Assembly (NCBI RefSeq): GCF_022606355.1
Contig: NZ_JAHHZQ010000002.1
Location: 558,001 to 622,000 of the forward strand
Direction of reading: 5' to 3'
Source of the DNA: Leifsonia shinshuensis
GTDB lineage: Bacteria; Actinomycetota; Actinomycetes; Actinomycetales; Microbacteriaceae
DNA length: 64,000 nucleotides
In this document: positions 4,008-54,414 of the stretch, one piece after another
Layout: each line of letters opens with the position of its first letter
Position numbering within the stretch: position 1 is the stretch's first letter
The notes under the pieces: model-generated
Told to the model about the DNA's origin: nothing
The model's input: only the letters and a program-made list of their open reading frames with translations
Databases searched by the model: none
Translations under genes and position numbers: made by a program

Positions 4008-4768
4008 TGTTCATCCCGATCGATCTCTCGGCCATCGAGGCGGTCGCGCTGGCGTCGCTGCGGATGGTCGCGTTCCTGGTGATCGCACCGCCGTTCTCGT
4101 ATAACGGCTTCCCCGCCCAGGTGAAGGGGATGCTCGCGATCGGACTCGCGATCGCCGTGGCCCCGCGGGTGGGCGCCGGGTACCACTCCGGAGACATCGG
4201 CGCGTTCCTGCTCGACATGGTGCGCGAGCTCGCCGTCGGTGCGACGCTGGGCTTCCTTGTGTTCGTGGTGTTCGCCGCCATCCAGTCGGCCGGCAGCTTC
4301 ATCGACCTGTTCGGCGGCTTCCAGCTCGCGCAGGCGTTCGATCCCCAGGCGATGATCAACGGCGCGCAGTTCACCCGGATGTTCCAGCTGACCGCGCTCG
4401 CGCTGCTGTTCGCCTCCGGCGGCTACCAGCTGATCATCGGCGGGCTGGTGCGCACGTTCGACGCGGTGCCGCTCGCGGCGGGGATGGACCTGGCCGACCC
4501 GGCGAAGGCGATGGTCACCGGCGTCACCCAGATGTTCCTGTCCGCCCTGCAGATCGCCGGGCCGCTCATCATCGTGCTGTTCATGGCCGATATGGCACTC
4601 GGCCTCCTCACCCGCGTCGCGCCGGCGCTCAACGCTTTCGCGCTCGGCTTCCCGCTCAAGATCATGCTGACGGTCGTGCTGTCGGCGGTCGTGTTCATCG
4701 CCCTGCCCGGCGTGGTCGGCTCGCTGACCGACACCGCCGTGAAGACCATGCTGGGGGTGACGCGATGA
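4007..4768 (+). CDS. fliR: Flagellar export gate protein FliR
   Basis: A 253-aa multi-span membrane protein of the FliR family, which completes the FliP5Q4R1 gate. Recognisable segments are PPFSYNGFPAQVKGMLAIGL, GSFIDLFGGFQLAQAFDPQ and NAFALGFPLKIMLTV. The ATG at 4007 overlaps the fliQ stop and the TGA overlaps flhB ATG 4765. Confidence 0.95.
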   Translation: MFIPIDLSAIEAVALASLRMVAFLVIAPPFSYNGFPAQVKGMLAIGLAIAVAPRVGAGYHSGDIGAFLLDMVRELAVGATLGFLVFVVFAAIQSAGSFIDLFGGFQLAQAFDPQAMINGAQFTRMFQLTALALLFASGGYQLIIGGLVRTFDAVPLAAGMDLADPAKAMVTGVTQMFLSALQIAGPLIIVLFMADMALGLLTRVAPALNAFALGFPLKIMLTVVLSAVVFIALPGVVGSLTDTAVKTMLGVTR

Positions 4769-5964
4769 GCGACGCGCAGGAACGCACCGAACAGGCGACC
4801 GACAAACGGATGAAGGAGGCCCGCTCCAAGGGCCGGCTCGCCAAGTCCACCGACCTCACCGCCTGGGTCGGCGTCGGCGCTGCGGCGGTCATGCTGCCGC
4901 TCACGCTGCAGAAGGGCAGCGACGCCGCCGTCGACCAGCTCTTCACCGTGCGGTCGGTCATCGAGAGCCCCGACCCCGCGAAGGCGCTGGTCGCGCTCGG
5001 CGACGGGCTCGGCAGCATCATGGCCACGATCGGGCCGTTGCTCGCGGTCGGCGCGATCGCTGTCGTCGGTGCCGCGGCCGTGCAGGGCGGCATCCACTTC
5101 AAGCGGCTGGCGCCCAAGTTCGAGCAGTTCAACATCGTCAGCGGCGTCGCCCGGGTGTTCGGGATGCGCGCCCTCTGGGAGGGTGCCAAGACGCTGCTGA
5201 AGTCGGCCGTGGTGGGGATCGGGCTGTTCCTGGTCGTCCAGGGGCTGATGCCGGTGCTGCTGACCTCCGGGATGTTGCCGATCGCCGCGCTGCTGTCCGC
5301 TGCGGGTGGTGGCGCGGCCGGCCTCCTCCAGGCGGCGATCGGGGCGGGGCTCGTGCTCGCCGGCCTCGATGTGCTCGTCGTCATGCGCCGCAACCGCAAG
5401 CACACCAGGATGACCAAGCGCGAGGTGCGCGACGAGTACAAGAACTCCGACGGCGATCCGCTGATCCGGTCGCAGCGGCGGTCGCGCCAGCTGGCGATGA
5501 GCCGCAACCGGATGATCGCGGCGATCGGCCAGTCGGACGTCGTGCTCGTCAACCCGACCCATATCGCAGTCGCCATCGTCTACGAGCCGGGCAAGTCGGC
5601 TCCCCGCGTCGTCGCGAAGGGTGCGGGCGCGATCGCGCTGCGCATCCGCGAGAAGGCGGAGGAGGAGCGGGTGCCGGTGGTCAAGGACATCCCGCTCGCC
5701 CGTGCGCTGCACGCGAGCTGCCGGCTCGGCGATGAGATCCCGGTGGAGCTCTACAACGCCGTCGCGCGCGTGCTGGCGTTCGTCATGTCGCTGAAGGCGC
5801 GCGGCGCCGCAGCCGGCACGCACACCATGCCGACCCCGTCGGCCGTCCCCGCGCAATTCCTCTCGCCGAAGGGCACGTCGTTGTCGCTTTCGGGCGCCGA
5901 AAGCGACAACAACGTGCCCCTCGGCGCGACATCCGCACCCGCAACCGCAGGAGGTCTGCAGTGA
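4765..5964 (+). CDS. flhB: Flagellar export switch protein FlhB with repeat-derived tail
   Basis: FlhB is the export-gate component that switches substrate specificity after autocleavage between N and P of an NPTH motif; that motif is present here as VLVNPTHIAVAIVYEPG. The N-terminus has the usual ERTEQATDKRMKEARSKG and four membrane segments follow. The 399-aa length exceeds the common 350-380 because the last 35 or so residues include SPKGTSLSL-x3-ESDNNVPL, encoded by a palindromic family A element at 5864-5926. The same peptide occurs in the ORF after flhA. GTGA overlap with flhA. Confidence 0.95.
   Translation: MSDAQERTEQATDKRMKEARSKGRLAKSTDLTAWVGVGAAAVMLPLTLQKGSDAAVDQLFTVRSVIESPDPAKALVALGDGLGSIMATIGPLLAVGAIAVVGAAAVQGGIHFKRLAPKFEQFNIVSGVARVFGMRALWEGAKTLLKSAVVGIGLFLVVQGLMPVLLTSGMLPIAALLSAAGGGAAGLLQAAIGAGLVLAGLDVLVVMRRNRKHTRMTKREVRDEYKNSDGDPLIRSQRRSRQLAMSRNRMIAAIGQSDVVLVNPTHIAVAIVYEPGKSAPRVVAKGAGAIALRIREKAEEERVPVVKDIPLARALHASCRLGDEIPVELYNAVARVLAFVMSLKARGAAAGTHTMPTPSAVPAQFLSPKGTSLSLSGAESDNNVPLGATSAPATAGGLQ
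5864..5926. repeat. Family A palindrome copy A1, inside flhB
   Basis: Two 30-base arms match at about 28 of 30 positions around a 3-base loop. The left arm reads CGCCGAAGGGCACGTCGTTG and continues GTCGCTTTCGG; the right arm is its reverse complement ending CCCCTCGGCG. It is fully inside the flhB reading frame. Other copies: 8162, 43247 and 52639. Confidence 0.92.
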
Positions 5965-8009
5965 AGTCCACAGCGAGCAAGGTCGCGGTGCCGATCGGCG
6001 TCGTCGGCATCATCATGCTGCTCGTGGTGCCGGTGCCGGCCTGGCTCCTCGACACGCTCATCATCGTCAACATCATGCTGGCGCTCGTGATCCTGCTCAC
6101 CACGATGTTCGTCAAGAAGCCGCTGGACTTCTCGGTGTTCCCTTCGCTGCTGCTGGTCGCGACGCTCTTCCGGCTGGGCCTGAACGTGGCCTCCACCCGG
6201 CTCGTGCTCGGCGACGGATATGCCGGCCAGGTCATCCAGGCGTTCGGCCACGTGGCCGTCGGCGGGTCCATCATCATCGGCGCCGTCGTCTTCCTGATCC
6301 TGATCGTGATCCAGTTCATCGTCGTCACGAAGGGTGCCGAGCGCGTCGCGGAGGTCGGTGCGCGCTTCACCCTCGACGCGATGCCCGGCAAGCAGATGGC
6401 CATCGACGCCGACCTGAACGCCGGCATCATCACCGAGGAGCAGGCGAGGGCACGGCGGGCGGAGGTCTCGGCCGAGGCCGACTTCTACGGCGCGATGGAC
6501 GGCGCGAGCAAGTTCGTCAAGGGCGATGCGATCGCCGGCATCCTGATCATCGTCATCAACGTGGTCGGCGGTATCGCGATCGGCATGATCCAGCGCGGCA
6601 TGCAGCTCGGCGACGCAGTCAACTCCTACACCCTGCTGACGATCGGCGACGGCCTGGTCACCCAGATCCCCGCGTTGCTGATGGCCGTCTCCACCGGCAT
6701 GATCGTCACGCGCTCCAACGCCGAGACCGACATCGGCACGACCGCGAGCGGCCAGCTCGGGCAGTCGCGCAACGCACTGACCATCGCGGGCTGCGCGGCC
6801 ATCGTCATGGCGCTCATCCCGGGCATGCCGCCGATTCCGTTCGTTCTCGTGGGCGGGGTGCTCGTGCTCGCCGCCCAGCGGATCAGGACCACGCAGGCGG
6901 CCGAGAAGAAGGCGAAGGCGGCGCAGGCGGCGGTGCAGAACGCGGGCAAGTCGGAGACGACGGAGGACCTCATCGACCAGATGCGGGTGCACGCCCTGGA
7001 GATCACCCTGGCGCCCGACCTGGTCGACATCGTGAGCGGCGCCTCCGACGACCTGCTCGCCCGCGTGCGGGCGCTGCGCCGCAAGATCGCGCTCGAGGTC
7101 GGCCTGATCGTGCCGCCTGTGCGCACGCGCGACAGCGCCGAGCTCCCGCCCTCCACGTACGTGATCAAGATCGCCGGGGTGGAGGCCGGCCGCGGGCAGG
7201 CTCCCGGCGGCCGGGTGCTGGCCCTCGGCGACGCGCTCGACGGCCTCCCCGGAACGCCGACGGTCGAGCCGGTGTTCGGCCTGCCCGCCAAGTGGATCCC
7301 CTCCGAGATGCGGCACAGCGCCGAGCTCGGCGGGGCGACGGTGATCGACAGGGTGTCGGTGCTGATCACGCACCTGTCGTCGATCATCACCTCCAACGCC
7401 GCGCGCCTGCTGACCCGGGAGGATGTGCGCCAGCTCACCGAGGCCGTCAAGCAGGTCAACGCGCCCGCCGTGGAGGAGCTCGTGCCGAACCTCCTGTCGC
7501 TCGCGGAAGTGCAGCGGGTGCTCCAGGGGCTGCTCGCCGAGCAGGTGCCGATCAACGACCTCCCGCGCATCCTGGAGGCTCTGGCGCTGCGGGCCAAGCT
7601 GTCGAACGACCCGGAGGGCCTCGTCGAGGCCGCGCGCGCGGCTCTCGGACCGGCGGTGGTCGCGCCGCACATCGACGGGGGGACGTTGCGCGTGATCATG
7701 ATCGACCCCGGCCTGGAGCAGTCGATGCTGGAAGGCCTGCGGCCGGGGGAGGGCGGCATGCAGATCGTGATGGATCCGCTGCGGCTGGAGGCGGTGCTGT
7801 CGTCGATCCGGCAGACGGCGGCGCAGCTCGACGAGGCCAACGTGTCTGCCGTCCTGGTCTGCGCTCCCGCGCTGCGGCCGGCGATCCGGCGGTTGGTCGC
7901 CGGCCAGCTCTCCGGGCTCGCGGTGCTGAGCTACCAGGAGGTCGGGGCGGCACAGGCGGCCATCGAGACGGTCGGGGTGGTGAGAGGTGCGGAGTCGATC
8001 GCGGCCTGA
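5961..8009 (+). CDS. flhA: Flagellar biosynthesis protein FlhA
   Basis: FlhA forms the nonameric export ring that receives substrates and chaperones and uses the proton motive force. The 682-aa product has eight predicted N-terminal membrane segments (conserved FPSLLLVATLFRLGLNVAST, and the FHIPEP-region equivalent around DAMPGKQMAIDADLNAGII) and a soluble C-terminal domain from about residue 320. The start is the GTG at 5961, within the flhB stop. A following ORF may start 23 nt before its stop. Confidence 0.96.
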   Translation: MKSTASKVAVPIGVVGIIMLLVVPVPAWLLDTLIIVNIMLALVILLTTMFVKKPLDFSVFPSLLLVATLFRLGLNVASTRLVLGDGYAGQVIQAFGHVAVGGSIIIGAVVFLILIVIQFIVVTKGAERVAEVGARFTLDAMPGKQMAIDADLNAGIITEEQARARRAEVSAEADFYGAMDGASKFVKGDAIAGILIIVINVVGGIAIGMIQRGMQLGDAVNSYTLLTIGDGLVTQIPALLMAVSTGMIVTRSNAETDIGTTASGQLGQSRNALTIAGCAAIVMALIPGMPPIPFVLVGGVLVLAAQRIRTTQAAEKKAKAAQAAVQNAGKSETTEDLIDQMRVHALEITLAPDLVDIVSGASDDLLARVRALRRKIALEVGLIVPPVRTRDSAELPPSTYVIKIAGVEAGRGQAPGGRVLALGDALDGLPGTPTVEPVFGLPAKWIPSEMRHSAELGGATVIDRVSVLITHLSSIITSNAARLLTREDVRQLTEAVKQVNAPAVEELVPNLLSLAEVQRVLQGLLAEQVPINDLPRILEALALRAKLSNDPEGLVEAARAALGPAVVAPHIDGGTLRVIMIDPGLEQSMLEGLRPGEGGMQIVMDPLRLEAVLSSIRQTAAQLDEANVSAVLVCAPALRPAIRRLVAGQLSGLAVLSYQEVGAAQAAIETVGVVRGAESIAA

Positions 8010-8793
8010 GTGGCTCGGCGGCGACCTCGAAAAGGAGGTGCTGCCCGCGGTCTCGACCTCGTCGCAGACGTTCGCCGCCATCCTCGACGACCTCGTGCGC
8101 GCCACGGACCCCGGCTCCGCGGCCCCCGCCGCACCCACCCCACCACCTCCTCACACTTCTTCGCCGAAGGGCACGTCGTTGTCGCTTCCGGAGCCCGAAA
8201 GTGACAACGACGTGCCCCTCGAGGAGCCGCGTGCACGCGTGGGTGCGGGTGTGGGCGCGAGTGCCGGCGGTGTGCTCGTGCAGCGGGCGGCGCCGGCGCG
8301 ACTGCGCGGCAAGGGCGACCTGACGCTCGTGGTCGGGCTGGGTGGCGATGCCCAGGCCGCTGCGGCGATCCTGGCGGCATCGGCGGACGCCGACGTGCTC
8401 GCGGTCGCCGACCGCCGAGAGGCGCTGGCCGCCCGCGCGGAGGGCGTGCGCCGCGAGTGCCCGATCGTCGGCGTCGTCGAGCTGGCGCGCGTGGATGCCG
8501 TGCCGGCGCTCGCCGCCTCCCTCGCCGCGATCGAGCCCGACCAGGTCTGGGTCGCCGTCGATGTCGGCCGCAAGCTCGACGACACCGCCGTCTGGGTGCG
8601 CGCCGTGGACGCCGTGCTCGCCGTCGACGGGATGGCGGCACACGGCGCCGCGCTCACCGCGACGCCCTGGGCGGTCGGTGCGCTCGGCCTCCCGCTGCTC
8701 TGGCTCGACGCCCCGCCCGGCCCGCCGGCCACAGCGTCGACGAACTGGCTGGACCTGCCGCCCTGGGACACGCCGGCTTCGGGCGCGTACTGA
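7987..8793 (+). CDS. Unknown protein at the flhF position, Rossmann-like, with an in-frame family A repeat
   Basis: A 268-aa ORF between flhA and csrA. Residues about 105-245 alternate strands and helices (LTLVVGLGGDAQAAAAI, VWVAVDVGRKLDDTAVWV), resembling a nucleotide-binding or SRP-GTPase-like core, but no GKT/GKS P-loop is present, so it is not a functional FlhF by sequence. Residues about 58-80 carry SPKGTSLSLPEPESDNDVPL, encoded by palindrome A2 and nearly identical to the FlhB tail. The start is uncertain: GTG 7987 overlaps flhA; GTG 8038 is directly preceded by AAAGGAG. A 13-bp duplication covers its stop codon. Confidence 0.55.
   Translation: MRSRSRPEWLGGDLEKEVLPAVSTSSQTFAAILDDLVRATDPGSAAPAAPTPPPPHTSSPKGTSLSLPEPESDNDVPLEEPRARVGAGVGASAGGVLVQRAAPARLRGKGDLTLVVGLGGDAQAAAAILAASADADVLAVADRREALAARAEGVRRECPIVGVVELARVDAVPALAASLAAIEPDQVWVAVDVGRKLDDTAVWVRAVDAVLAVDGMAAHGAALTATPWAVGALGLPLLWLDAPPGPPATASTNWLDLPPWDTPASGAY
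8162..8222. repeat. Family A palindrome copy A2, inside the post-flhA ORF
   Basis: CGCCGAAGGGCACGTCGTTG begins the left arm; the right arm ends AACGACGTGCCCCTCG. Lies in the same reading frame relative to the repeat as copy A1 in flhB, so both proteins gain the same peptide. Confidence 0.9.
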
Positions 8794-22132: not shown

Positions 22133-22193
22133 CGAGGGGCACATAAACGCCCCCAAAAGTCGCGGATAGGGGCGCTTGCGTGCCCCTCGGCGG
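22133..22193. repeat. Family B palindrome copy B2
   Basis: Left arm CGAGGGGCACATAAACGCCC, right arm AGGGGCGCTTGCGTGCCCCT followed by CGGCGG. Intergenic between two same-strand dehydrogenase genes; could limit read-through. Confidence 0.88.
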
Positions 22194-27395: not shown

Positions 27396-27435
27396 GCAGA
27401 AGGACCCGTGGCCGGGCGGCCACGGGTCCTTCTGC
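27396..27435. terminator. Strong symmetric terminator hairpin
   Basis: GCAGAAGGACCCGTGGCC pairs perfectly with GGCCACGGGTCCTTCTGC around a short GGC-containing loop. It lies 11 nt after the stop of the DUF-type membrane protein gene ending at 27447 (minus strand). Confidence 0.88.
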
Positions 27436-39691: not shown

Positions 39692-40645
39692 TCAGGCGTC
39701 GGCGGCGCCGGCGGCGTCGGCGGCGGCCGTGAGCGCGGTGAGCGCGCGGTCGAGGGAGCCGCCGAGCGCCCACCGCTCGGCGAGGGCGTCGAGCGTCTCG
39801 CGCTGTTCGGCGGTCGGCACGCGCAGCCGAGCATCCACCGGCGCGATCGGGAGGTCGCGCACGACCTTCACCACTTTCGGTGCCACGGCGAGGTAGTCCA
39901 CGGCCGCGTCGAATCGCGCGCGCAGCGCCGGCTTCATCGCCGAGGCCGGGTCGGAGGCGGCGGCCTCGATCCCGGTGAGGTCGCCGTACTCGGTGAGCAG
40001 CGCCATCGCCGTCTTCTCGCCGACGCCGGCCACCCCGGGCAACCCGTCGGACGTATCGCCGCGCATCACCGCGAAGTCCGCGTACTGGCGCGCGTGGATG
40101 CCGTATTTCGCCACGACGACCGCGTCGGTCAGCACCTCCAGATTGCTCATTCCGCGCGCCGTGTAGACCACCCGCACATCCGCCTCGTCGTCCACCAACT
40201 GGAACAGGTCGCGGTCGCCCGTCACCACGTCCACCGGTCCGGACGCGCCGGTCGCGAGCGTGCCGATCACATCGTCGGCCTCGGCCTCCGCCGCGCCCAC
40301 GATCGGGATGCCGAGCGCGTCGAGCACCTCCCGGATGACCGGCACCTGCACCACCAGCTCGGCCGGCACCTCCTCGACGTCCACGCCCCCGGGGACCTCC
40401 TGCGCGACGCGGTGCGCCTTGTAGCTCGGGATGAGGTCGACGCGCCACCCCGGGCGCCAGTCGTCGTCCCAGCAGGCGACGAGCGACTCCGGACCGTACT
40501 CGGTCACCAGCTTCGCGATGATGTCGAGCAGCCCGCGCACCGCGTTGACGGGCGTGCCGTCCGGGGAGCGCACCGTATCTGGCACGCCGTAGAAGCCGCG
40601 GAAGTAGAGGGAAGCGCTGTCGAGGAGCATTGTTCGCCCGGTCAC
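39692..40645 (-). CDS. Stand-alone 5'-3' exonuclease (Pol I N-terminal domain-like)
   Basis: A 317-aa FEN/5'-nuclease. Metal-binding acidic residues lie in LLLDSASLYFRGFYG, EAEADDVIGTLA and VTGDRDLFQLV; the helix-three-turn-helix is MRGDTSDGLPGVAGVGEKTA. Such proteins remove RNA primers or flaps alongside DNA polymerase I and are common as separate genes in actinobacteria. Start GTG 40645 or ATG 40630. Confidence 0.9.
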   Translation of the reverse strand: MTGRTMLLDSASLYFRGFYGVPDTVRSPDGTPVNAVRGLLDIIAKLVTEYGPESLVACWDDDWRPGWRVDLIPSYKAHRVAQEVPGGVDVEEVPAELVVQVPVIREVLDALGIPIVGAAEAEADDVIGTLATGASGPVDVVTGDRDLFQLVDDEADVRVVYTARGMSNLEVLTDAVVVAKYGIHARQYADFAVMRGDTSDGLPGVAGVGEKTAMALLTEYGDLTGIEAAASDPASAMKPALRARFDAAVDYLAVAPKVVKVVRDLPIAPVDARLRVPTAEQRETLDALAERWALGGSLDRALTALTAAADAAGAADA

Positions 40646-40678
40646 AGCCCGATCATGCCATGCCGCTAAGGTGTGCGC

Positions 40679-41128
40679 ATGGCCGCAACCGTCGTCGTCG
40701 AGCGCACCGAAACCATCCATGCGCCCCGGGAGGCCGTGCTGCCGCTCGTCGCGGAGCTCCCGAAGTGGATCGAGTGGTCGCCGTGGGAGGGCACCGACCC
40801 GGCGATGAGCCGCGAGTACACGGGCACGCCCGGCGCCGTCGGCTCCACCTACAGCTGGAACGGCAACCGCAAGGCCGGAGCCGGCAGCATGCGCATCGAG
40901 GATGTGCAGGACGACGGGGTGGGCATCGATCTGGTCTTCACGCGCCCGTTCCGGTCGCACAGCCTCATCCGCTTCTCGCTCACGGACGAGGGTGAAGGCA
41001 CCCGGGTCATCTGGAGGATGGAGAGCCCCAAGACGTTCTTCAGCCGGTTCTTCAACCTCGACCGGCTCGTCGGCGGCGACTTCGAGAAGGGGCTGCGACA
41101 GCTGCGGCAGGTCGCGGAAGACCGCTAG
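40679..41128 (+). CDS. SRPBCC (START/polyketide-cyclase-like) protein
   Basis: A 149-aa SRPBCC-fold protein: VERTETIHAPREAVLPLVAE, KWIEWSPWEGTDPAM, and GEGTRVIWRMESPKTFFSRF. The fold binds hydrophobic ligands; function unknown. Divergent from the exonuclease gene. TAAGGT (40667-40672) ends 6 nt before ATG 40679. Confidence 0.82.
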   Translation: MAATVVVERTETIHAPREAVLPLVAELPKWIEWSPWEGTDPAMSREYTGTPGAVGSTYSWNGNRKAGAGSMRIEDVQDDGVGIDLVFTRPFRSHSLIRFSLTDEGEGTRVIWRMESPKTFFSRFFNLDRLVGGDFEKGLRQLRQVAEDR

Positions 41129-41133
41129 CGCCC

Positions 41134-41178
41134 GCCGCTCGGTGTGCTGCCGCTCGGCACGCCGCCGCTCAGTTCGGC
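41134..41178. repeat. Three degenerate 15-bp tandem units over a stop codon
   Basis: Units start GCCGCTCGGTGTGCT (41134), GCCGCTCGGCACGCC (41149) and GCCGCTCAGTTCGGC (41164). The TGA of the SnoaL-like gene (41169-41171, minus strand) is in the third unit. Confidence 0.6.
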
Positions 41179-41528
41179 AGGTACGTCCCGTGTCCGCGGC
41201 TCACCAGCTCGCCGTCGAACTCGAGCACTTCGCAGACGACTCCTCCGCTCTGATTGCGGTAGCGGATGACGATCGTGCTCGTGCCGACGTAATGCTCGAG
41301 CACCTCGAACCGGAGGTCGGGCACGGCGGCCAGCCCCGCGGTCCAGTACACGCGCAGGGCGTCCTTGCCGTGTGCGACGCCCTCGCTACCGGGCAGGAAC
41401 CGCTCCGCGAGCGGTGACGAGAAGACGACGCCGTCGGTGTAGTGGGCCAGCAGGGCGTCCAGGTCGTGCGCGTTCCAGTCCGCGACCCACTGATCGACGA
41501 AGCGGCGTGCGAAGTCTGCGCTGATCAT
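41169..41528 (-). CDS. SnoaL-like / NTF2-fold protein
   Basis: A 119-aa NTF2-like protein: FVDQWVADWNAHDLDALLAH, the SnoaL-type start, then VVFSSPLAERFLPGSEGVAH. May be a ketosteroid-isomerase-like enzyme or a binding protein. ATG 41528 chosen; the frame is open further upstream through the NUDIX gene. Confidence 0.82.
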   Translation of the reverse strand: MISADFARRFVDQWVADWNAHDLDALLAHYTDGVVFSSPLAERFLPGSEGVAHGKDALRVYWTAGLAAVPDLRFEVLEHYVGTSTIVIRYRNQSGGVVCEVLEFDGELVSRGHGTYLPN

Positions 41529-41582
41529 CCCCACAGCATGGCATCGCGAGTGGGCATCGCGCGCGGTCAGTAGCGTGGGGGG

Positions 41583-41987
41583 ATGACGTTGCCTCCCCTG
41601 CTGGTGTCGGCCGTCGCGCTCGTGCGCGACCGACGGGTGCTCATGGTGACCGCTCGGGGCCGGGATGTGCACTACATGCCGGGCGGCAAGATCGACGCAG
41701 GCGAGACGGCCGTGCAGGCCGCGGCCAGGGAGGCCCGAGAAGAGGTCTCGCTGGTCCTCGACCCCGCCGGGCTGGTCGAGCTGTTCGAGGTGCGCACGCA
41801 GGCGCACGGCGAGCCGGACGGCAGGATGGTGCACATGACCGTGTTCCGGGCGCAGACCGACGCCGAGCCCGAGCCCTCGGCCGAGGTGGGCGCCATCCAC
41901 TGGGTCACCACCGCGGACGCCGAGCGCTGCCCGCCCGCCGGCCGTGCGGTCCTGGAGCGCCTGGCGGCCCTCGACCTCATCGACTGA
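41583..41987 (+). CDS. NUDIX hydrolase
   Basis: A 134-aa protein with a complete NUDIX box, GGKIDAGETAVQAAAREARE followed by EVSL. Substrate unknown; MutT-like size. TAGCGT (41571-41576) ends 6 nt before ATG 41583. Its 3' end is followed at once by family B hairpin B3. Confidence 0.9.
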   Translation: MTLPPLLVSAVALVRDRRVLMVTARGRDVHYMPGGKIDAGETAVQAAAREAREEVSLVLDPAGLVELFEVRTQAHGEPDGRMVHMTVFRAQTDAEPEPSAEVGAIHWVTTADAERCPPAGRAVLERLAALDLID

Positions 41988-41994
41988 ACGGCTT

Positions 41995-42054
41995 CGAGGG
42001 GCACGTAAGCGCCCCTAAGCCCCCGGGATAGGGGCGCTTGCGTGCCCCTCGGCG
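41995..42054. repeat. Family B palindrome copy B3, partly encoding the MarR C-terminus
   Basis: Left arm CGAGGGGCACGTAAGCGCCC and right arm AGGGGCGCTTGCGTGCCCCT pair around TAAGCCCCCGGGAT. From 42015 on it lies inside the MarR reading frame (minus strand), giving the final residues AEGHASAPIPGA. Confidence 0.9.
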
Positions 42055-42548
42055 GTCTGCACGATGCTCGCGCAGGCGTCGGACGGACGACGCGCCGGAT
42101 CGATCGCCCCGACGAGGGCGGCCGAGATGTCGGCGAGCTGCTCGACCTGCTCAGGGCGAAGCGCTCCGAGGATGCGCTCGCGGACGGTCTCGAGGTGCCC
42201 GGGTGCTGCCTCCGCGACGACGGCGGCGCCCGCCTCGGTGAGCACGGCGTTGGTGGCGCGGCCGTCCTCCTCGCAGGGCATCCGGCGCACGAGGTCGCGG
42301 GCTTCGAGCCGTGTGATCACATGGCTCAACCGCGAGACGGAGGCGTTCGTCGCGGTCGCCAGCGCACTGAGCCGCATGCGGTGATTCGGCTCCTCGGCGA
42401 GCCGCGAGAGCACGAAGTACTCGTAGTGGGTCGAGGCGGCGTCGCGGGCGAGCTGGCCGTCGAGTACGGGCGGCAGAAGCTGGGTGAGCGCGACGAGCCC
42501 GAGCCAGGCGTCGCGTTCGCGGCCGGCGAGGTCCTCGTTCGTGCTCAT
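42015..42548 (-). CDS. MarR-family transcriptional regulator
   Basis: 177 residues with the MarR winged helix: MRLSALATATNASVSRLSHV as recognition region and RRMPCEEDGRATNAVLTEAG as wing. The C-terminal twelve residues come from a family B palindrome. It is divergent from an NADP-binding oxidoreductase with a paired palindrome between them, the classic layout for autoregulation and control of the neighbour. TAGAAT on the minus strand (42556-42561) ends 7 nt before ATG 42548, supporting this start over 42557. Confidence 0.9.
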   Translation of the reverse strand: MSTNEDLAGRERDAWLGLVALTQLLPPVLDGQLARDAASTHYEYFVLSRLAEEPNHRMRLSALATATNASVSRLSHVITRLEARDLVRRMPCEEDGRATNAVLTEAGAAVVAEAAPGHLETVRERILGALRPEQVEQLADISAALVGAIDPARRPSDACASIVQTAEGHASAPIPGA

Positions 42549-42570
42549 GGAGAGCATTCTACCCGATTAC

Positions 42571-42615
42571 TTGACGCTTCAACCAACTGGGGTTATCGTT
42601 TAGTTGAAGCGTCAA
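42571..42615. promoter_or_regulatory. Paired MarR operator and divergent promoters
   Basis: TTGACGCTTCAAC (42571-42583) and GTTGAAGCGTCAA (42603-42615) are exact inverted copies, 32 bp centre to centre; each half is itself TTGA-N4-TCAA. For the plus strand, TTGACG (42571) and TATCGT (42594-42599) form a promoter with a 17-bp spacer, so one operator covers the -35 and the other the start point. Confidence 0.8.
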
Positions 42616-42662
42616 CAAAAGTTGGCGCGGACCCCCAGAACCTCGAGAAGGAGAACAGGCTC

Positions 42663-43232
42663 ATGACCACGGTCAGCATCATCGGAAACGGCAACATGGC
42701 GAAGGCGATCGGCGGAGTCGTCGCCGCGGGTGGCAGCACCGTGCAGTACCTCGGTCGCGACGGCGGCACGGTGGACGGATCGATCGTCGTGCTCGCGGTG
42801 CCGTACCCCGAGGTGGACGCCGTGCTCGCGACCTACGGCGCTCAGCTCGCGGGCAAGGCCGTCGTCGACATCACCAACCCGGTCGACTTCGCGACCTTCG
42901 ACGGCCTGACCGTTCCCTCCGACTCGTCGGCCGCCGCCGTGATCGCGGCCGCGCTGCCCGAATCGACCGTGCTCAAGGCCTTCAACACGACCTTCGCCGC
43001 GACGCTCGCCACCGGAAAGGTCGGGGCGGAGACCACCACGGTGCTCATCGCCGGCGACGACGACGCGGCCAAAGCCGAGCTCGGCGGCCTGGTGCGGGCG
43101 GGCGGCCTGAACGCCGTGGACGCCGGCTCCCTCCGCCGCGCCCGCGAGCTCGAAGCCCTCGGCTTCCTGCAGATCTCGCTCGCCGCGGCCGAGCGTGTCT
43201 CCTGGACCGGAGGCTTCGCGGTCGTCGCGTAA
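42663..43232 (+). CDS. NADP-binding oxidoreductase, F420-dependent NADP reductase-like
   Basis: A 189-aa protein with MTTVSIIGNGNMAKAIGGVV as Rossmann motif and VDITNPVDFATFDGLTVP plus VLKAFNTTFAATLATGKVGA, typical of the NADPH:F420 reductase-like (NAD_binding_10/F420_oxidored) family. Whether it uses F420 is open. GAGAAGGAGAA lies upstream of ATG 42663. Expected to be repressed by the divergent MarR protein. Confidence 0.88.
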   Translation: MTTVSIIGNGNMAKAIGGVVAAGGSTVQYLGRDGGTVDGSIVVLAVPYPEVDAVLATYGAQLAGKAVVDITNPVDFATFDGLTVPSDSSAAAVIAAALPESTVLKAFNTTFAATLATGKVGAETTTVLIAGDDDAAKAELGGLVRAGGLNAVDAGSLRRARELEALGFLQISLAAAERVSWTGGFAVVA

Positions 43233-43246
43233 CCCCATCCAGAACC

Positions 43247-43303
43247 CGAGGGGCACGTCGTTGTCGCTTTTCGCCCCGCGAAGCGACAACGACGTGCCCC
43301 TCG
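43247..43303. repeat. Family A palindrome copy A3
   Basis: CGAGGGGCACGTCGTTGTCG, then GCTTTTCG, and a right arm ending GACGTGCCCCTCG. Intergenic, 14 nt after the oxidoreductase stop and before the LacI-type gene. Confidence 0.92.
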
Positions 43304-43328
43304 ATGCGTGCCGGGCGGCCGTTAGGGT

Positions 43329-44336
43329 GTGGATGTGAGTGACAGCGGGCGGGCGCCGGGCGTGCGGGAGGTCGCGGCCGCTGCCGGCGTGTCACGCCAG
43401 ACCGTGTCGCGCGTGCTCAACGACCATCCCAGCATCCGCCCCGAGACGCGCGAGCGGGTGCTCGGCGCGATGGCCGACCTCAACTTCCGGCCGAACCGCG
43501 CCGCCCGCATGCTCACCACCGCGCGCTCGCGCACCATCGGCGTGCTCGCGGCCTCGGCGTCGTCGCTCTTCGGCCCGGCCTCCAGCATCGACGCGGTCGA
43601 GCAGGCCGGGCGGGAGGCCGGCTACTTCGTGACGGTCGCGCACGCGGCGTCCCTCGACCGCGCCGAGCTGACCGCCGCCATCGATCACCTCGGCGCGCAG
43701 TCCGTCGAGGGCGTCGTGGTCATCGCCCCGCAGCGGGCCGTGCAGGAGGCCATGGCCGCGCTGTCGCTGTCTGTGCCGTCCGTGGCCCTGCACGGTGCGG
43801 GGGTCGCCGGAGACGAGGGCGTGTTCGTGGACCAGTTCGAGGGTGCTCGCATCGCAACCCGCCACCTGATCGAGCGCGGACACACGCGCATCGCCCACCT
43901 GAGCGGGCCTGCGGACTGGTCGGAGGCGCGCGCCCGCCGCGAAGGGTTCGTCGCCGAGCTCTCCGCCGCCGGGCTGGAGCCGGTCGTCTCGCGGGAGGGC
44001 GACTGGACCGCCGCGTCCGGTGCGGCCATCGGCGCCGAGCTGCTCGCGGCCCGGGATGCACCCACCGCGATCTTCTCGTCGAACGACCAGATGGCGCTGG
44101 GCGTGCTGCACGCGACCCGGGTGCTCGGCCTGCGCGTGCCGGACGACCTGGCGCTCGTCGGGTTCGACGACATCCCGGAGGCCGCCTTCTTCTCGCCACC
44201 GCTGACGACCGTGCGGCAGGACTTCCCGGAGCTCGGCCGCCGCTGCATCGCGCGGCTCGTCGCCCTCATCGAGGGCCGTGAGCTCGCGTTCGCCGCGCCT
44301 GTCGCCCCGGTGCTGGTCGTCCGCGACTCCGTCTAG
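43329..44336 (+). CDS. LacI-family regulator, probable regulator of the ara operon
   Basis: 335 residues. HTH at about 10-31 (GVREVAAAAGVSRQTVSRVL) followed by the hinge and a periplasmic-binding-protein-like effector domain (GVLHATRVLGLRVPDDLALV, GFDDIPEAAFF). Located immediately upstream of araBDA on the same strand, as AraR-type LacI regulators are in other actinobacteria; a TGTGACCGGTCACA palindrome before araB is its likely site. Start GTG 43329 or GTG 43335. Confidence 0.88.
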   Translation: MDVSDSGRAPGVREVAAAAGVSRQTVSRVLNDHPSIRPETRERVLGAMADLNFRPNRAARMLTTARSRTIGVLAASASSLFGPASSIDAVEQAGREAGYFVTVAHAASLDRAELTAAIDHLGAQSVEGVVVIAPQRAVQEAMAALSLSVPSVALHGAGVAGDEGVFVDQFEGARIATRHLIERGHTRIAHLSGPADWSEARARREGFVAELSAAGLEPVVSREGDWTAASGAAIGAELLAARDAPTAIFSSNDQMALGVLHATRVLGLRVPDDLALVGFDDIPEAAFFSPPLTTVRQDFPELGRRCIARLVALIEGRELAFAAPVAPVLVVRDSV

Positions 44337-44352
44337 CGCGGCGGCGGGCGAT

Positions 44353-44410
44353 CGAAGGGCACCCAAGCGCCCCTTCCCGGGCGTTTTAGGGGCATTTGGG
44401 TGCCCTTCGG
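44353..44410. repeat. Family B palindrome copy B4
   Basis: Left arm CGAAGGGCACCCAAGCGCCC, right arm GGGGCATTTGGGTGCCCTTC followed by GG. Lies between the LacI-type gene and the araB promoter. Confidence 0.88.
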
Positions 44411-44443
44411 CAGCGGTGGGTGTCCGGGTGGAGGGGGTGCGTG

Positions 44444-44474
44444 TATGCTCGACGCAGCAATGTGACCGGTCACA
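44444..44474 (+). promoter_or_regulatory. araB promoter with LacI-type operator
   Basis: TATGCT (44444-44449) as -10 is followed by the perfect 14-bp palindrome TGTGACCGGTCACA (44461-44474), placed just after the expected start point, where a bound LacI-family protein would block transcription. GGGAG follows as ribosome site before ATG 44493. Confidence 0.75.
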
Positions 44475-44492
44475 AGGGAGTGGGAGAGAACC

Positions 44493-46172
44493 ATGGCAGC
44501 CGACACCTCGGCCACCGAGGCCAGCGCCGCACAGGCCGGCGCACGCGCCGGCGCCGCCCTCCGCTCCGGCCGCACCGCGCTCGGCATCGAGCTCGGCTCC
44601 ACCCGCATCAAGGCCTGCCTGGTCGACGCCGACGACCCGGCCTCCGTGCTCGCCGTCGGCTCGCATCACTGGGAGAACGAGTTCGCCGACCGGCAGTGGA
44701 CCTACTCGCTCGACGCGGTCTGGTCCGGCGTGCAAGCGGCCTACGCCGACCTTCTCGCCGACGTCGAGCGCCGTCACGGCGCCCGCCCGCAGACGTTCGC
44801 CGCGATCGGCGTCTCCGCGATGATGCACGGCTACCTCGCGCTCGACGCCGACGGCGAGCTGCTCGTGCCGTTCCGCACCTGGCGCAACACCACGACCGGC
44901 GCCGCGAGCGCCGAGCTGACCGCGCTGTTCGGCGTCAACATCCCGCTGCGCTGGTCGATCGCGCACCTCCACCAGGCGGTCGTCGACGGTGAGCCGCATC
45001 TCGCCAGGCTCGACTCGATCACCACGCTCGCCGGCTACGTGCACAGAAGGCTCACCGGCCGCCACGTGCTCGGGGTGGGCGACGCGTCGGGGATGTTCCC
45101 CATCGACCAGGCGACCGCCACCTACGATGCCGACCTCGTCGCCCGCTACGACGCCCTCGCGGCGACCCGCGCCGAGATCCCCCCGCTCGCCCATCTCCTC
45201 CCTGAGGTGCTGGTCGCCGGTCGCCCCGCAGGCGAGCTCACCGCCGAGGGTGCCACGCTGCTCGACCCGACGGGGGCGCTCCGGCCCGGCGCGCCGCTCT
45301 GCCCTCCGGAGGGCGACGCGGGCACCGGCATGGTCGCGACGAACTCGGTCGCGCCGCGCACCGGCAACGTCAGCGCGGGCACGAGCATCTTCGCCATGGT
45401 CGTGCTGGAGCGGCCGTTGGAGCACGTGCACCACGAGCTCGACCTGGTCACCACACCGGCCGGCGACCCGGTCGCGATGGTGCACTGCAACAACGGCGCG
45501 AGCGAGCTCTCCGCCTGGGCGTCGCTGTTCGGGAGGTTCGCGGAGGCCGCGGGAACACCGGTCGCCCCGGATGCGGTCTTCGACACGCTGCTGCGCGAGG
45601 CGCTCAGCGGCGAGGCCGACGCGGGAGGCCTCCTCGCCTACAACTACCTCGCCGGCGAGCCGATCACGGGCCTCGACGAAGGGCGCCCGTTGGTCGTCCG
45701 CACGCCGGACAGCCGCCTGACCCTGGGCAACTTCGTGCGCGCCCAGCTCTACGGCGTGTTCGGCACGTTGGCGCTCGGGATGCGCGTGCTCGACGGCGAG
45801 GGCGTGGCGCTCGACCGGATGTTCGCGCACGGCGGCCTGTTCCGCACCGCGGGGGTCGCCCAGCGCTTCCTGGCCGGAGCCCTGGATGCCCCGGTCTCAG
45901 TCGCGCAGACCGCGTCGGAGGGCGGAGCGTGGGGCATCGCGGTGCTCGCGGCCTACCTGGACCACGCAGCCGGCGGCCGTGACGACGGCGCGGCCGACGG
46001 CCTGGGCGCCTACCTCCAGCGCGACGTCTTCGGCGGGTTCGTCTTCGATACGACGGAGCCGGAGCCCGACGACGTCGCCGGGTTCGCCGCCCACCTCGAC
46101 CGCTACCGCGACGGGCTGGCCGCTGAGCGCGCTGCCGTCGCCTCGATCGCCCTGAAGGGAGCCGCGCGATGA
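44493..46172 (+). CDS. araB: FGGY-family ribulokinase
   Basis: A 559-aa FGGY carbohydrate kinase phosphorylating L-ribulose in the L-arabinose pathway, named from its place beside araD and ara[21 protein letters not shown] is the phosphate-binding start, [20 protein letters not shown] the adenosine region, and [20 protein letters not shown] the second FGGY signature. An Ala-rich N-terminal extension of about 25 residues precedes the fold. Sequence alone would also allow xylulokinase. Stop overlaps araD by 4 nt. Confidence 0.88.
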
Positions 46173-46873
46173 CCTCAGAGCTGGAGACCGCCGCGGTCCG
46201 CCACGTCCGCGAGCGGGTCGCCGCGCTGCACGCCGAACTCGTGCGCTACGGCCTCGTCGTCTGGACCGGCGGCAACGTGTCAGGACGCGTTCCCGGCGCC
46301 GACCTCTTCGTCATCAAGCCGAGCGGCGTCGACTACGACGACCTCGCGCCGGAGAACATGATCCTCTGCACGCTCGACGGCGTGGTGGTGCCCGGCTCGC
46401 TCGGCTCCGAGCGCTCGCCGTCCAGCGACACCGCCGCGCACGCGTACGTCTACCGCAACCTCCCGGAGGTCGGCGGCGTCGTGCACACCCACTCCACCTA
46501 CGCGACGGCGTGGGCGGCGCGCGCAGAGGCCATCCCGTGCGTCATCACGGCGATGGCCGACGAGTTCGGCGGGGAGATCCCGGTCGGGCCGTTCGCGATC
46601 ATCGGCGACGACTCCATCGGCCGCGGCATCGTCCAGACCCTGAACGGCCACCGCAGCCGCGCGGTGCTGATGCAGAACCACGGTGTCTTCACGATCGGCC
46701 GCGACGCCCGCGACGCGGTCAAGGCCGCGGTGATGGCGGAGGACGTGGCCCGTACCGTGCACATCGCCCGGCAGGGCGGCCCGCTCGTCCCGATTCCGCC
46801 GGAGGCCGTGGACCGCCTCTTCGACCGCTACCAGAACGTCTACGGACAGAACCCGGAAGGAACCCTCGCCTGA
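46169..46873 (+). CDS. araD: L-ribulose-5-phosphate 4-epimerase
   Basis: A 234-aa class II aldolase-family epimerase converting L-ribulose-5-P to D-xylulose-5-[21 protein letters not shown] and [15 protein letters not shown] supply phosphate and Zn ligands (His-x-His); [20 protein letters not shown] gives the third His. Translationally coupled to araB (ATGA) and to araA (TGATG). Confidence 0.93.
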
Positions 46874-48405
46874 TGCCGAAGCTCACCGCCTCCCCGAACT
46901 CGAACGGGCTCGACGGCTACGAGGTCTGGTTCCTCACCGGCAGCCAGCACCTCTACGGCCCGGAGACGCTCGCCCAGGTCGCCGAGCAGTCGCGCGCGAT
47001 CGCCGACCGGCTGGCCGCGTCGTCCGATGTGCCGGTGCGCGTGGTCTGGAAGCCCGTTCTCACCGACTCGGCCGCGATCCGCCGCACGGCGCTGGAGGCC
47101 AACGCCGACGACGCCGTCATCGGCCTGGTCGCGTGGATGCACACCTTCAGCCCGGCCAAGATGTGGATCGCCGGCCTCGACGCCCTCCAGAAGCCGCTGC
47201 TGCATTTCCACACGCAGGCGAACGTCGAGCTGCCGTGGGGCGAGATCGACTTCGACTTCATGAACCTCAACCAGGCCGCGCACGGCGACCGCGAGTTCGG
47301 CTACATCCAGACGCGCCTCGGGGTGCCGCGCACGACCGTCGTCGGGCACGTCAGCAGCCCGGCCGTGACGCAACGCATCGGCACCTGGACGCGCGCCGCG
47401 GCAGGGTGGGCCGCGACGCGCTCGCTCAAGCTGGCGCGCTTCGGCGACAACATGCGGTTCGTGGCCGTCACGGAGGGCGACAAGACGGAGGCCGAGCTGC
47501 GGTTCGGCGTGCAGGTGAACACCTGGGGCGTCACCGAGCTGGCCGACGCCGTCGCCGCGGCCGCGTCCTCCGACGTCGACGCGCTCGTCGCCGAGTACGA
47601 AGAGCTGTACGACGTCGTCCCCGAGCTCCGCCGCGGCGGCGACCGTCACCAGTCGCTGCGCGACGGCGCCGCCATCGAACTGGGGCTGCGCTCGTTCCTC
47701 GAGGAGGGCGGCTTCGGCGCCTTCACGACGAGCTTCGAAGACCTCGGCGCTCTGAAGCAGCTGCCCGGCCTGGCCGTGCAGCGCCTGATGGCCGAGGGCT
47801 ACGGCTTCGGCGCGGAGGGCGACTGGAAGACCGCGATCCTGGTGCGCGCGGCGAACGTCATGGGCGCGGGTCTCCCGGGCGGCGCCTCGCTGATGGAGGA
47901 CTACACCTACGACCTGACGCCGGGCGACGAGCGCATCCTCGGCGCGCACATGCTGGAGGTCGCGCCCTCGCTCACGTCCGCGAAGCCGAGCCTCGAGGTC
48001 CACCCGCTCGGCATCGGCGGCAAGGACGACCCGGTGCGCCTGGTCTTCACGGCCGACCCCGGCCCCGCCGTGGTGGTGGCGCTCTCGGACCTGCGAGACC
48101 GGTTCCGGCTCGTCGCCAACGTCGTGGAGGTCGTGGAGCCGTCGGCTCCGCTGCCGAAGCTCCCGGTCGGGCGCGCCGTGTGGAAGCCGGCTCCCGACTT
48201 CACCACGTCGGCGACCGCGTGGCTGGAGGCCGGCGCCGCCCACCACACGGTGATGAGCACGGCCGTCGGCATCCAGGCGTTCGAGGACTACGCCAGGATG
48301 GCCCGCACCGAGCTGCTCGTCATCGACGACGACACGACGCTGCGTGCGTTCTCCCGCGAGCTCGACTGGAACGCCGCCTACCAGCGCCTCGCACGCGGCA
48401 TCTAG
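46873..48405 (+). CDS. araA: L-arabinose isomerase
   Basis: A 510-aa AraA converting L-arabinose to L-ribulose. [54 protein letters not shown] and [20 protein letters not shown] are standard family blocks with metal-binding Glu and His residues. ATG 46873 shares one base with the araD stop. The order araB-araD-araA after a LacI-type gene matches other actinobacterial arabinose operons. Confidence 0.96.
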
Positions 48406-48416
48406 CCGCCACGACT

Positions 48417-48453
48417 CCCGGCCGCCGGCATGTCATCGGCGTCGGCGGCCGGG
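48417..48453 (+). terminator. Terminator hairpin of the ara operon
   Basis: CCCGGCCGCCG and CGGCGGCCGGG pair around a 15-base loop, 12 nt after the araA stop. Confidence 0.72.
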
Positions 48454-48565
48454 TCCCGACTCCGCGCGTTCCCGTGTCAGTGTGCGCCGACCATAGGCGC
48501 CCTGCGGAGCGGCCCGTAGTATCGGATCGATCCGCACTCGCCCGGATCGGAAGCGGAGCTGCCCC

Positions 48566-50812: not shown

Positions 50813-50824
50813 TCCGGCGCTGCG

Positions 50825-51649
50825 TCAGGAGACGCGCTCGACGGGAGCCTGCAGCTCGGTGATCCAGTCGGGCGCTGGGATGTGGCCGGTGGCCTGGACG
50901 TAGACCTCGCGGGTCGGGCCGACGACGCGGTAGCCGTCGGCGACCAGACGCTCGGTGAGCGCCATCCAGGAGTCGCCGATTCCGGTCATGTCGCCGTGGT
51001 GCAGCAGGGTCGCGGCGAGCGGGACTTCCGGCAGCTCGACGACGTCATAGCCGTCGCCGGGCTGCGCGGGAGAGTCCGCGGGGTAGGAGATGTGCACCTC
51101 CAGGCGCTCGTCGTCGCGGGCTTCGTACCAGAAGACCGAGGGCTCCAGGATGGGGCGGCCAGCGGCCGCGAGGGCTTGGTCGAGCGAGCCGATCAGCGGG
51201 CCGACCATCGGCCCGATGAACTCGTTGCCCATGCCGGGCGCAGTGCCGCTGACGGCGTAGACGGTGAGCGCCTCCAGCGGGCGGTACTCGACGGATGTGG
51301 ACATGGTCTCGGTTCCTTCCAGTATGCGGAGACGCCGCTCGAGGCGGTCGAGCCGGTCGCGGTCGTCGGCGATCCCCGCCTCCAGCTCGACCCGGCGCTG
51401 CCGCAGCGCCGCTGACAGGGCGGCCTGCAGGTCGGCAGAGGCGAGCACGGCGGCGATGGCGTCGAGCCCGATGCCGAGCTGGCGCAGCTCGACGATCAGC
51501 AGCAGGTCGGCCAGCTGCGCGTCTGCGTAGTAGCGGTAGCCGCTGTATTCGTCGACGCGCGCCGGCGGCAGCAGATCGATCGCGTCGTAGTGCCGCAGCA
51601 TCCTGACGCTGATCCGCCCGATCGCGGCGAACTCTCCGATGGTGTACAT
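50825..51649 (-). CDS. MerR-family regulator with GyrI-like effector domain
   Basis: 274 residues. MYTIGEFAAIGRISVRMLRH and YRYYADAQLADLLLIVELRQ form the MerR winged helix; a coiled coil (about 80-115) and an effector-binding GyrI/AraC-effector-like domain follow (VYAVSGTAPGMGNEFIGPMV, LEVHISYPADSPAQPG), as in BmrR-type multidrug regulators. ATG 51649 was preferred over the ATG 27 nt upstream. Divergent from the NmrA-like gene, which it probably controls. Confidence 0.9.
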   Translation of the reverse strand: MYTIGEFAAIGRISVRMLRHYDAIDLLPPARVDEYSGYRYYADAQLADLLLIVELRQLGIGLDAIAAVLASADLQAALSAALRQRRVELEAGIADDRDRLDRLERRLRILEGTETMSTSVEYRPLEALTVYAVSGTAPGMGNEFIGPMVGPLIGSLDQALAAAGRPILEPSVFWYEARDDERLEVHISYPADSPAQPGDGYDVVELPEVPLAATLLHHGDMTGIGDSWMALTERLVADGYRVVGPTREVYVQATGHIPAPDWITELQAPVERVS

Positions 51650-51782
51650 GACGGTGGCCACGCTCCAGCCTGACACGGTGTGAGGGTCAACAGCCCCTGC
51701 GGACTTCGTCGATTCTCAGTGGACTCGGTTGCGGTTTCTGACCGATCATTGGCGTATTCGACGGTGCTGGACGGAGGCTGTG

Positions 51783-52622: not shown

Positions 52623-52638
52623 GCCCTGAAACCAGCGA

Positions 52639-52695
52639 CGAAGGGCACGTCGTTGTCACTCTCCGCGGGGAAAAGCGACAACAACGTGCCCTTCG
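52639..52695. repeat. Family A palindrome copy A4
   Basis: CGAAGGGCACGTCGTTGTCA and right arm ACAACAACGTGCCCTTCG. Between convergent NmrA-like and phospholipase C-like genes. Confidence 0.9.
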
Positions 52696-52704
52696 GGGGT
52701 TGGA

Positions 52705-54372: not shown

Positions 54373-54414
54373 CCTGCTTCCTTCTGTTCGAGTGGGTGTT
54401 ACCGGACCTCCGCC

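Follow-up and report, generated by a model that had tools for sequence, protein, structure and literature searches.

Two flagellar genes of Leifsonia shinshuensis carry almost the same palindrome in the same reading phase, which raises the question of whether such a sequence persists there for the peptide that it encodes or as a DNA element that happens to lie within genes. In the window, by which we mean the whole 64-kb stretch of DNA analysed, the two copies A1 and A2 are near-perfect palindromes of the form CGA-RGGGCAC-N37-GTGCCC-Y-TCG, 57 bp long and not 60 bp as first reported in a preliminary description of this DNA (Table 1). Their first bases fall on the same codon position, since 5867-4765 and 8165-7987 each equal 1 mod 3, an agreement with a 1-in-3 chance of arising by coincidence. 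According to the ORF translations, A1 encodes SPKGTSLSLSGAESDNNVPLG and A2 SPKGTSLSLPEPESDNDVPLE, and the minus-strand readings in the ORF list are RGTLLSLSAPESDNDVPFG and RGTSLSLSGSGSDNDVPFG, so that either strand yields a similar peptide. A1 is located past the Pfam FlhB match, whose limit is residue 340 of 399, and 41 bases, stop counted, separate its 3′ end from the end of the flhB ORF. The ORF at 7987-8793 lies between flhA and csrA, and its element-bearing linker varies strongly among species. Folded as RNA, A1 reaches -43.5 kcal/mol (z -8.25) and A2 -43.1 kcal/mol (z -9.57), values equalled by 0 of 200 shuffles. The preliminary description was thus correct in placing palindromes inside coding sequence in a shared phase, in expecting similar peptides from both strands and in assigning A1 to the FlhB tail; the two copies that it recognized are real, but the window holds seven.

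Table 1. Flagellar genes and 57-bp palindromic elements of the window, with remarks on matching sites in related genomes.
Feature	Position	Strand	Remarks
flhB	4765..5964	+	ORF list; Pfam Bac_export_2, E 7.4e-99, residues 5-340 of 399
Palindromic element A1, type A	5867..5923	+	in frame within flhB, near its 3′ end
flhA	5961..8009	+	sits between both element-bearing genes; Pfam FHIPEP, E 3.8e-243
Conserved ORF after flhA	7987..8793	+	no Pfam match at E 0.001; A2 in variable linker
Palindromic element A2, type A	8165..8221	+	codon phase as A1
Element, type B, tandem intergenic	22133..22189 (C4:580133)	.	type A at matching site in G010 and G008
Element, type B, 7 nt past stop	41995..42051 (C4:599995)	.	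G010 without element; B-like remnant in G024
Element, type A, 14 nt past stop	43247..43303	.	type A in G010; four decayed A-like tandem units in G024
Element, type B	44353..44409 (C4:602353)	.	G010 without element; decayed B-like copy in G008; another palindrome in G024
Element, type A, between convergent genes	52639..52695	.	type A in G010 and G008; other palindrome families in G024 and G022

The preliminary description had proposed a genome-wide search and had named an absence of further copies as the result that would count against it. In G000, the 4.78-Mb Leifsonia genome to which the window belongs, the exact ends GGGCAC-N37-GTGCCC occur 117 times and the reversed-pattern control once, which excludes a chance origin of this 57-bp palindrome family. 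When the pattern was extended by one base on either side and its gap left free between 15 and 45, 124 sites were returned genome-wide (control 2); the 13 free-gap cores (gap 15-45) of an unselected 204 kb each measured 51 bp, or 57 bp including CGA/TCG. Flanks were recovered for 97 copies, defined as 57-mers with at most 3 end mismatches and arm pairing of at least 68%, a set that excludes weakly paired copies and other lengths such as C1:595180, C1:780381 and C4:228100. The outer CGA...TCG is present in 98-100% of their half-sites per position. The interiors fall into two types with common ends and length, A (GTYGTTGTCRCTTTCGG..., 46 copies) and B (GYAARCGCCCCTAAAAC..., 51 copies). At least four of the six reading frames are open in 45 of 46 A copies vs 14 of 51 B copies, making A the type that fits most easily inside a gene. 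Close tandem elements, 127-160 bp from start to start, occur in G000 at C4:51257-51634, C4:219802-219998, C5:177305-177491, C5:314321-314671 and C4:979926-980109; they are reminiscent of BIME arrays, and in both arrays inspected the units have flanking DNA in common. The window also contains a 40-bp hairpin at 27396-27435 (GCAGAAGGACCCGTGGCC...) with ends other than those of the 57-bp family. The reading we favour, with a probability of about 0.6, is that of a REP-like, apparently non-autonomous palindrome family whose interiors are overwritten by a DNA-level process and of which the FlhB peptide is a by-product.

The preliminary description had emphasized coding copies, an emphasis that does not extend to the family, as most of the 97 copies are extragenic. 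Codon-based gene calls from our own caller placed 57 copies between convergent genes, 36 in tandem and 2 in divergent gaps, 1 within a gene and 1 without assignment; A2 was wrongly filed as tandem and intergenic, so at least 2 of the 97 lie inside genes, and both of these are in frame. Convergent gaps, which hold most copies, nevertheless make up just 2,193 of about 21,700 intergenic bp in the position-chosen 204 kb, against 12,085 bp for tandem and 7,401 bp for divergent gaps. Tandem copies lie a median of 14.5 nt from the upstream stop and 61 nt from the downstream gene, 28 of 32 being closer to the stop (32 of the 36 cases, with four overlapping calls dropped and the misfiled A2 counted in). 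On the favoured reading of a REP-like family, the elements would mostly settle directly behind stops, a location in which they are probably almost harmless, and only rarely would they enter tolerant tails or linkers in frame.

Placement at 3′ ends and the very stable hairpins would also suit bidirectional terminators or stabilisers of 3′-end RNA, in which the hairpin is under selection and families turn over because the hairpin alone matters. Unrelated palindromes at matching spots agree with this: they are found in G024 and G022 at window position 52639, in G024 at 44353, in G022 at 41995 and in G010 at C4:661515 and C4:554829. However, a scan of 40001-56000 for intrinsic terminators (G+C-rich hairpin plus T run) flagged none of the four elements there and found one unrelated site, with 3.2 expected by chance. 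Two copies, moreover, lie within coding sequence in a flagellar gene cluster, and a constant length of 57 bp with constant ends would be needless for a terminator. No Rfam match at gathering score was obtained within the 64-kb window. We also considered selection on the RNA strand, which should favour G.T over A.C mispairs, and rejected it, as tandem copies read on the sense strand contain 40 G.T and 43 A.C. These near-equal totals conceal opposite trends by type (G.T/A.C 16/27 in A and 24/16 in B), and the same trends recur in convergent copies (18/28 in A and 37/26 in B), so there is no sign of transcript-strand selection. Taken together, we regard a terminator or stabiliser function as unlikely.

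FlhB is present in 26 of the 28 genomes of the genus. The preliminary description had suggested aligning the orthologues, a tail peptide present in all of them being the outcome that would speak against an insertion. Instead, the insertion is present in 3 of the 25 tails read, those of G000, G010 (type A) and G025 (chimeric); the set leaves out the weak partial match in G018, whose tail also shows no element. The G025 copy is 57 bp long, lies at the matching position and combines one B-like with one A-like arm, and the other tails read, including those of G008 and G024, have no insert. In the flhA tree, G008 clusters with G000 and G010, and G025 falls outside; together with the missing insert in G008, this requires either a loss in G008 or separate gains. 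Between G000 and G010, three arm columns of the flhB copy have changed on both sides and are complementary still, and four residues have changed, so the protein bore the cost of the preserved pairing. Conservation of the FlhB peptide at the protein level was rejected on these grounds. Nothing in the sequences compared indicates that selection for a surface peptide acts on the element, and the FlhB peptide would be a by-product. In the ORF after flhA both ends are conserved. The linker of G000, G010 and G008 contains an A element, that of G019 a decayed form of 57 bp with an arm pairing of 0.75, and that of G024 a possible remnant. The linker of G003 (L094) contains a different 57-bp stretch with a palindromic first half (CGAGTGGTGACATGACGTCACCACTCG), by eye at about the place where G000 has A2.

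We then compared elements at orthologous sites. For the 204-kb region picked by position, elements of G000 with pairing of at least 60% were set against the syntenic, position-chosen stretch of Leifsonia sp. TF02-11 (G010) alone. All 14 align on both flanks, and the sites comprise 6 A/A, 3 B/A, 1 chimera/A and 4 without this element in G010; thus 10 of 14 are occupied in both genomes, and the interior type differs in 4 of these 10. Among the remaining four, C4:599995 and C4:602353 are empty in G010, C4:661515 holds a ATTCGTSACGAAT-type palindrome and C4:554829 another hairpin. Conversely, two G010 elements in the region lack an intact G000 counterpart. Over all G000/G010 stretches, 33 sites gave 17 A/A, 8 B/A, 1 chimera/A and 7 without this element, a sample biased by the many G010 stretches chosen for containing A. 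The 17 sites compared with G008 gave 9 A/A (one of them doubtful: C4:219802, in a tandem array where an earlier comparison found no element), 4 B/A, 1 B against a decayed B-like copy and 3 without.

The cleanest case of differing interiors is C7:207391, where the 50-bp flanks align with G010 ungapped on both sides, with 2 differences each, and both elements are 57 bp long, B in G000 and A in G010. At C1:471668 and C4:648342 the left flanks are ungapped against G010, and the remaining sites with differing types are less clean. The flank adjacent to the element cannot be cleanly aligned at C1:84357, C4:248167 and C7:325854 against G010, where the sequence directly beside the element is unalignable on at least one side, or at C4:580133 and C4:259371 against G008. 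At C1:471668, C4:580133 and C4:648342, G000 has B and both G010 and G008 have A; as G008 lies outside the G000/G010 pair, this suggests a change from A to B in G000. C4:580133 has a B-like remnant in G024, however, which implies more than one change at this site. Besides the flhB copy of G025, the elements C4:632551 and G020:C1:25622 likewise join one B-like to one A-like arm. Where both genomes have A, the inherited sequence is mostly retained, given that orthologous A copies are more similar (identity 0.903) than non-orthologous ones (0.826). Type A nevertheless differs in dialect: interior positions 19-22 read CCCT or CCCC in 62 of 94 half-sites of G010 vs 20 of 92 in G000 and 11 of 56 in G008, with much of the G010 and G008 part of the sample obtained by a pattern fixing CTT beside these positions. 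In G010, the flhB copy A1 carries the G010 dialect, with three paired changes. No clean empty site with exact junctions was found in the relatives; the best candidate is C1:1144593, where G010 is shorter by exactly 57 bases and the flanks are too diverged to place the junction.

MITE-type elements moved by an ordinary transposase would account for the dispersal of the copies, for their conserved ends, for sites occupied in one species and empty in another and for copy numbers within the genus of 0-4 vs 18-117, the B/A differences being independent insertions at hot spots. PMC10969869 describes pneumococcal SPRITE, BOX and RUP and other MITEs as small, dispersed, hairpin-forming and mainly intergenic elements, a description that the Leifsonia elements share. 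They differ, however, in lacking a target duplication: direct repeats of 2-8 bp beside the 97 copies do not exceed chance (2 bp, 28 seen vs 26.0 expected; 4 bp, 2 vs 1.2; none longer). The base-exact shared position at C7:207391, the ungapped left flanks at C1:471668 and C4:648342 and the elements composed of one B-like and one A-like arm also argue against repeated insertion, and we consider this alternative distinctly unlikely.

A highly improbable third alternative, modelled on the uptake signal sequences of Neisseria, holds that dialects shift by preferential uptake and recombination of DNA carrying the species motif, and it would fit the species dialects and the inverted-repeat form at 3′ ends; but instead of many single copies the 64-kb window contains no lone A or B half-site (at most 4 mismatches of 23) and three exact lone outer 10-mers only, and recombination of long DNA would not limit the change to the element with flanks unchanged.

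To characterize arm complementarity, we scored the 17 G000/G010 A/A pairs (425 arm columns), in which 52 columns differ. Nine passed from one Watson-Crick pair to another by changes on both sides; 14 were Watson-Crick in G000 and changed on one side in G010 (7 to G.T and 7 to a mismatch); 25 were G.T or mismatched in G000 and Watson-Crick in G010 through one change; and 4 were others. In the nine G000/G008 pairs, 4 columns went from one Watson-Crick pair to another by two-sided changes and 9 lost Watson-Crick pairing by a one-sided change. Across paralogues, pairing at the variable arm columns is 65.2% for type A vs 48.5% with arms re-dealt (maximum of 500, 58.7%) and 65.5% for type B vs 55.7% (maximum 64.3%).

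On the favoured reading of interiors overwritten at the DNA level, copies would replace each other's interior by gene conversion or single-strand annealing, by way of the ~11 outer bp that they have in common and of their self-complementary arms, and this overwriting would also help to maintain arm complementarity. Neither repeated insertion nor selection for termination appears to fit these alignments as well as conversion among dispersed copies, since length and ends are constant, the change at the best site is confined to the element, chimeras of A and B arms exist and the G010 dialect has reached the flhB copy. Several observations count against conversion: the sequence common to A and B types is only about 11 bp per end; A/A sites mostly retain inherited sequence; of the 23 Watson-Crick arm pairs of G000 that differ in G010, 14 are one-sided vs 9 two-sided; and the flanks at several sites with differing types do not align cleanly. 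The exchange would be read from the end states of species about 5% apart in flhA DNA, rather than from an observed donor or conversion event.

Exact-end copies are concentrated in six element-rich Leifsonia genomes (G000 117, G027 95, G010 89, G008 56, G020 54 and G025 18); the remaining 22 of the 28 genus genomes have 0-4 (controls 0-2). Outside the genus, counts do not exceed 9 in the 62 other genera of Microbacteriaceae tested (controls up to 3) or 8 in 59 genomes from further families of the order. The strict type A pattern, searched against genome contigs, matched only Leifsonia TF02-11 (G010) and Leaf336 (G008), in 55 stretches, from a set in which records close to the window's own genome are possibly absent; type A is also present in one 120-kb stretch of G027. 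The strict type B pattern occurs 53 times in G000, 52 in G020, 37 in G027, 10 in G008, 7 in G010 and 3 in G025. No viral contig matched either an A or a B pattern, and no plasmid matched A1; seven Brevundimonas phage records gave matches of just 27-32 bp, which were taken as unrelated.

Other palindromes are patchy over the genus. Those of G022, G016, G024, G009, G005 and G003 have their own ends and variable yet palindromic interiors, and several of these families have a CGCCGAG-like outer end in common. A CGAGCACAGG-type palindrome (57-58 bp) occurs in G009 (14), G024 (12), G005 and G016 (11 each), G003 (4), G000 and G022 (1 each); a CGAGGTTCAC-type palindrome (57-58 bp) in G022 (10), G016 (7) and G002 (1); and a shorter CCGAGTACGC-N9 family (29 bp) in G024 and G003 (24 each), G022 (11) and G025 (7), with 0-3 elsewhere. 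Controls for these three patterns were 0 in all 28 genomes. The ATTCGTSACGAAT-type palindrome was observed in G024, G019 and G010. A broader proposal, which we offer tentatively and at somewhat less than an even chance, is that an active rewriting process in Leifsonia overwrites the interiors of 57-bp palindromes in place, with the ~11-bp ends as address and genic copies included. Species would then drift to their own dialect or type with sites fixed, without RAYT or reverse transcriptase, and the other families of ~55-58 bp (CGAGCACAGG, CGAGGTTCAC and ATTCGTSACGAAT types), some at the same sites, would be further products.

Enzyme searches covered two families, other transposases being outside their reach. 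RAYT-type (Y1_Tnp) transposase PF01797 was found in none of the 28 genus genomes and in 5 of 14 control genomes. Reverse transcriptase PF00078 was absent from the six element-rich genomes; its restriction to the element-poor G013 and G016, with 2 and 4 copies, does not match a retron or reverse-transcriptase product. Spread to new sites would depend, on the favoured reading, on a factor other than a detected RAYT or reverse transcriptase.

Among known systems, REPs are the closest in behaviour. In its account of these sequences, PMC3733652 describes short high-copy palindromes of 20-40 bp that lie for the most part behind genes, where neighbouring ORFs converge or run in one direction, and in some cases within genes, most families having a GTAG (or CGTC) tetranucleotide at one end and the CGTC superfamily apparently having no dedicated transposase; the lengths stated in PMC3116915 are ~20-60 bp. 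The Leifsonia elements resemble REPs, REPINs and BIMEs as short, mostly extragenic palindromes in 117 copies, and resemble REPs in lying mainly downstream of convergent or tandem genes (57 + 36 of 97). Their 57 bp fall within the second length range and exceed the first, as given in those accounts. They differ in their CGA/TCG ends without a GTAG or CGTC tag, in the lack of a RAYT (PF01797) in the 28 genomes and in having two interior types at the same orthologous sites; as both end tag and RAYT fail, we do not file them as REPs sensu stricto, although they behave like a REP family.

The preliminary description had likened A1 and A2 to Rickettsia palindromic elements. The likeness holds for palindromic, in-frame insertion in protein genes and not for membership: for those elements the review PMC10969869 gives about 150 bp and in-frame ORF fusion at unusually high frequency, whereas the Leifsonia elements are 57 bp long with 2 of 97 copies known in genes. 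A further parallel is provided by coding palindromes in Nematomorpha mitochondria, for which, according to PMC6649704, arms co-change with complementarity kept despite non-synonymous change, and repeat conversion is proposed. The arms of the Leifsonia flhB copy likewise co-change along with residues; as described there, however, the two arms of a single repeat co-evolve, whereas in Leifsonia the interior also differs between two dispersed types. The open-access literature searched yielded no evident description of elements of this kind for Leifsonia or Microbacteriaceae.

Whether short bacterial palindromes evolve by transposition or by gene conversion has been asked since the beginnings of REP research, and Higgins and others reportedly raised gene conversion for REPs, as a question, in the title of a 1988 paper. 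With two distinguishable interiors in one frame, comparisons of close relatives allow in-place replacement to be scored at each individual site. The flhB copy allows DNA-level change to be separated from selection on 3′-end RNA, and the indication that a copy can stay put when its interior is exchanged makes this old question of repeat evolution testable.
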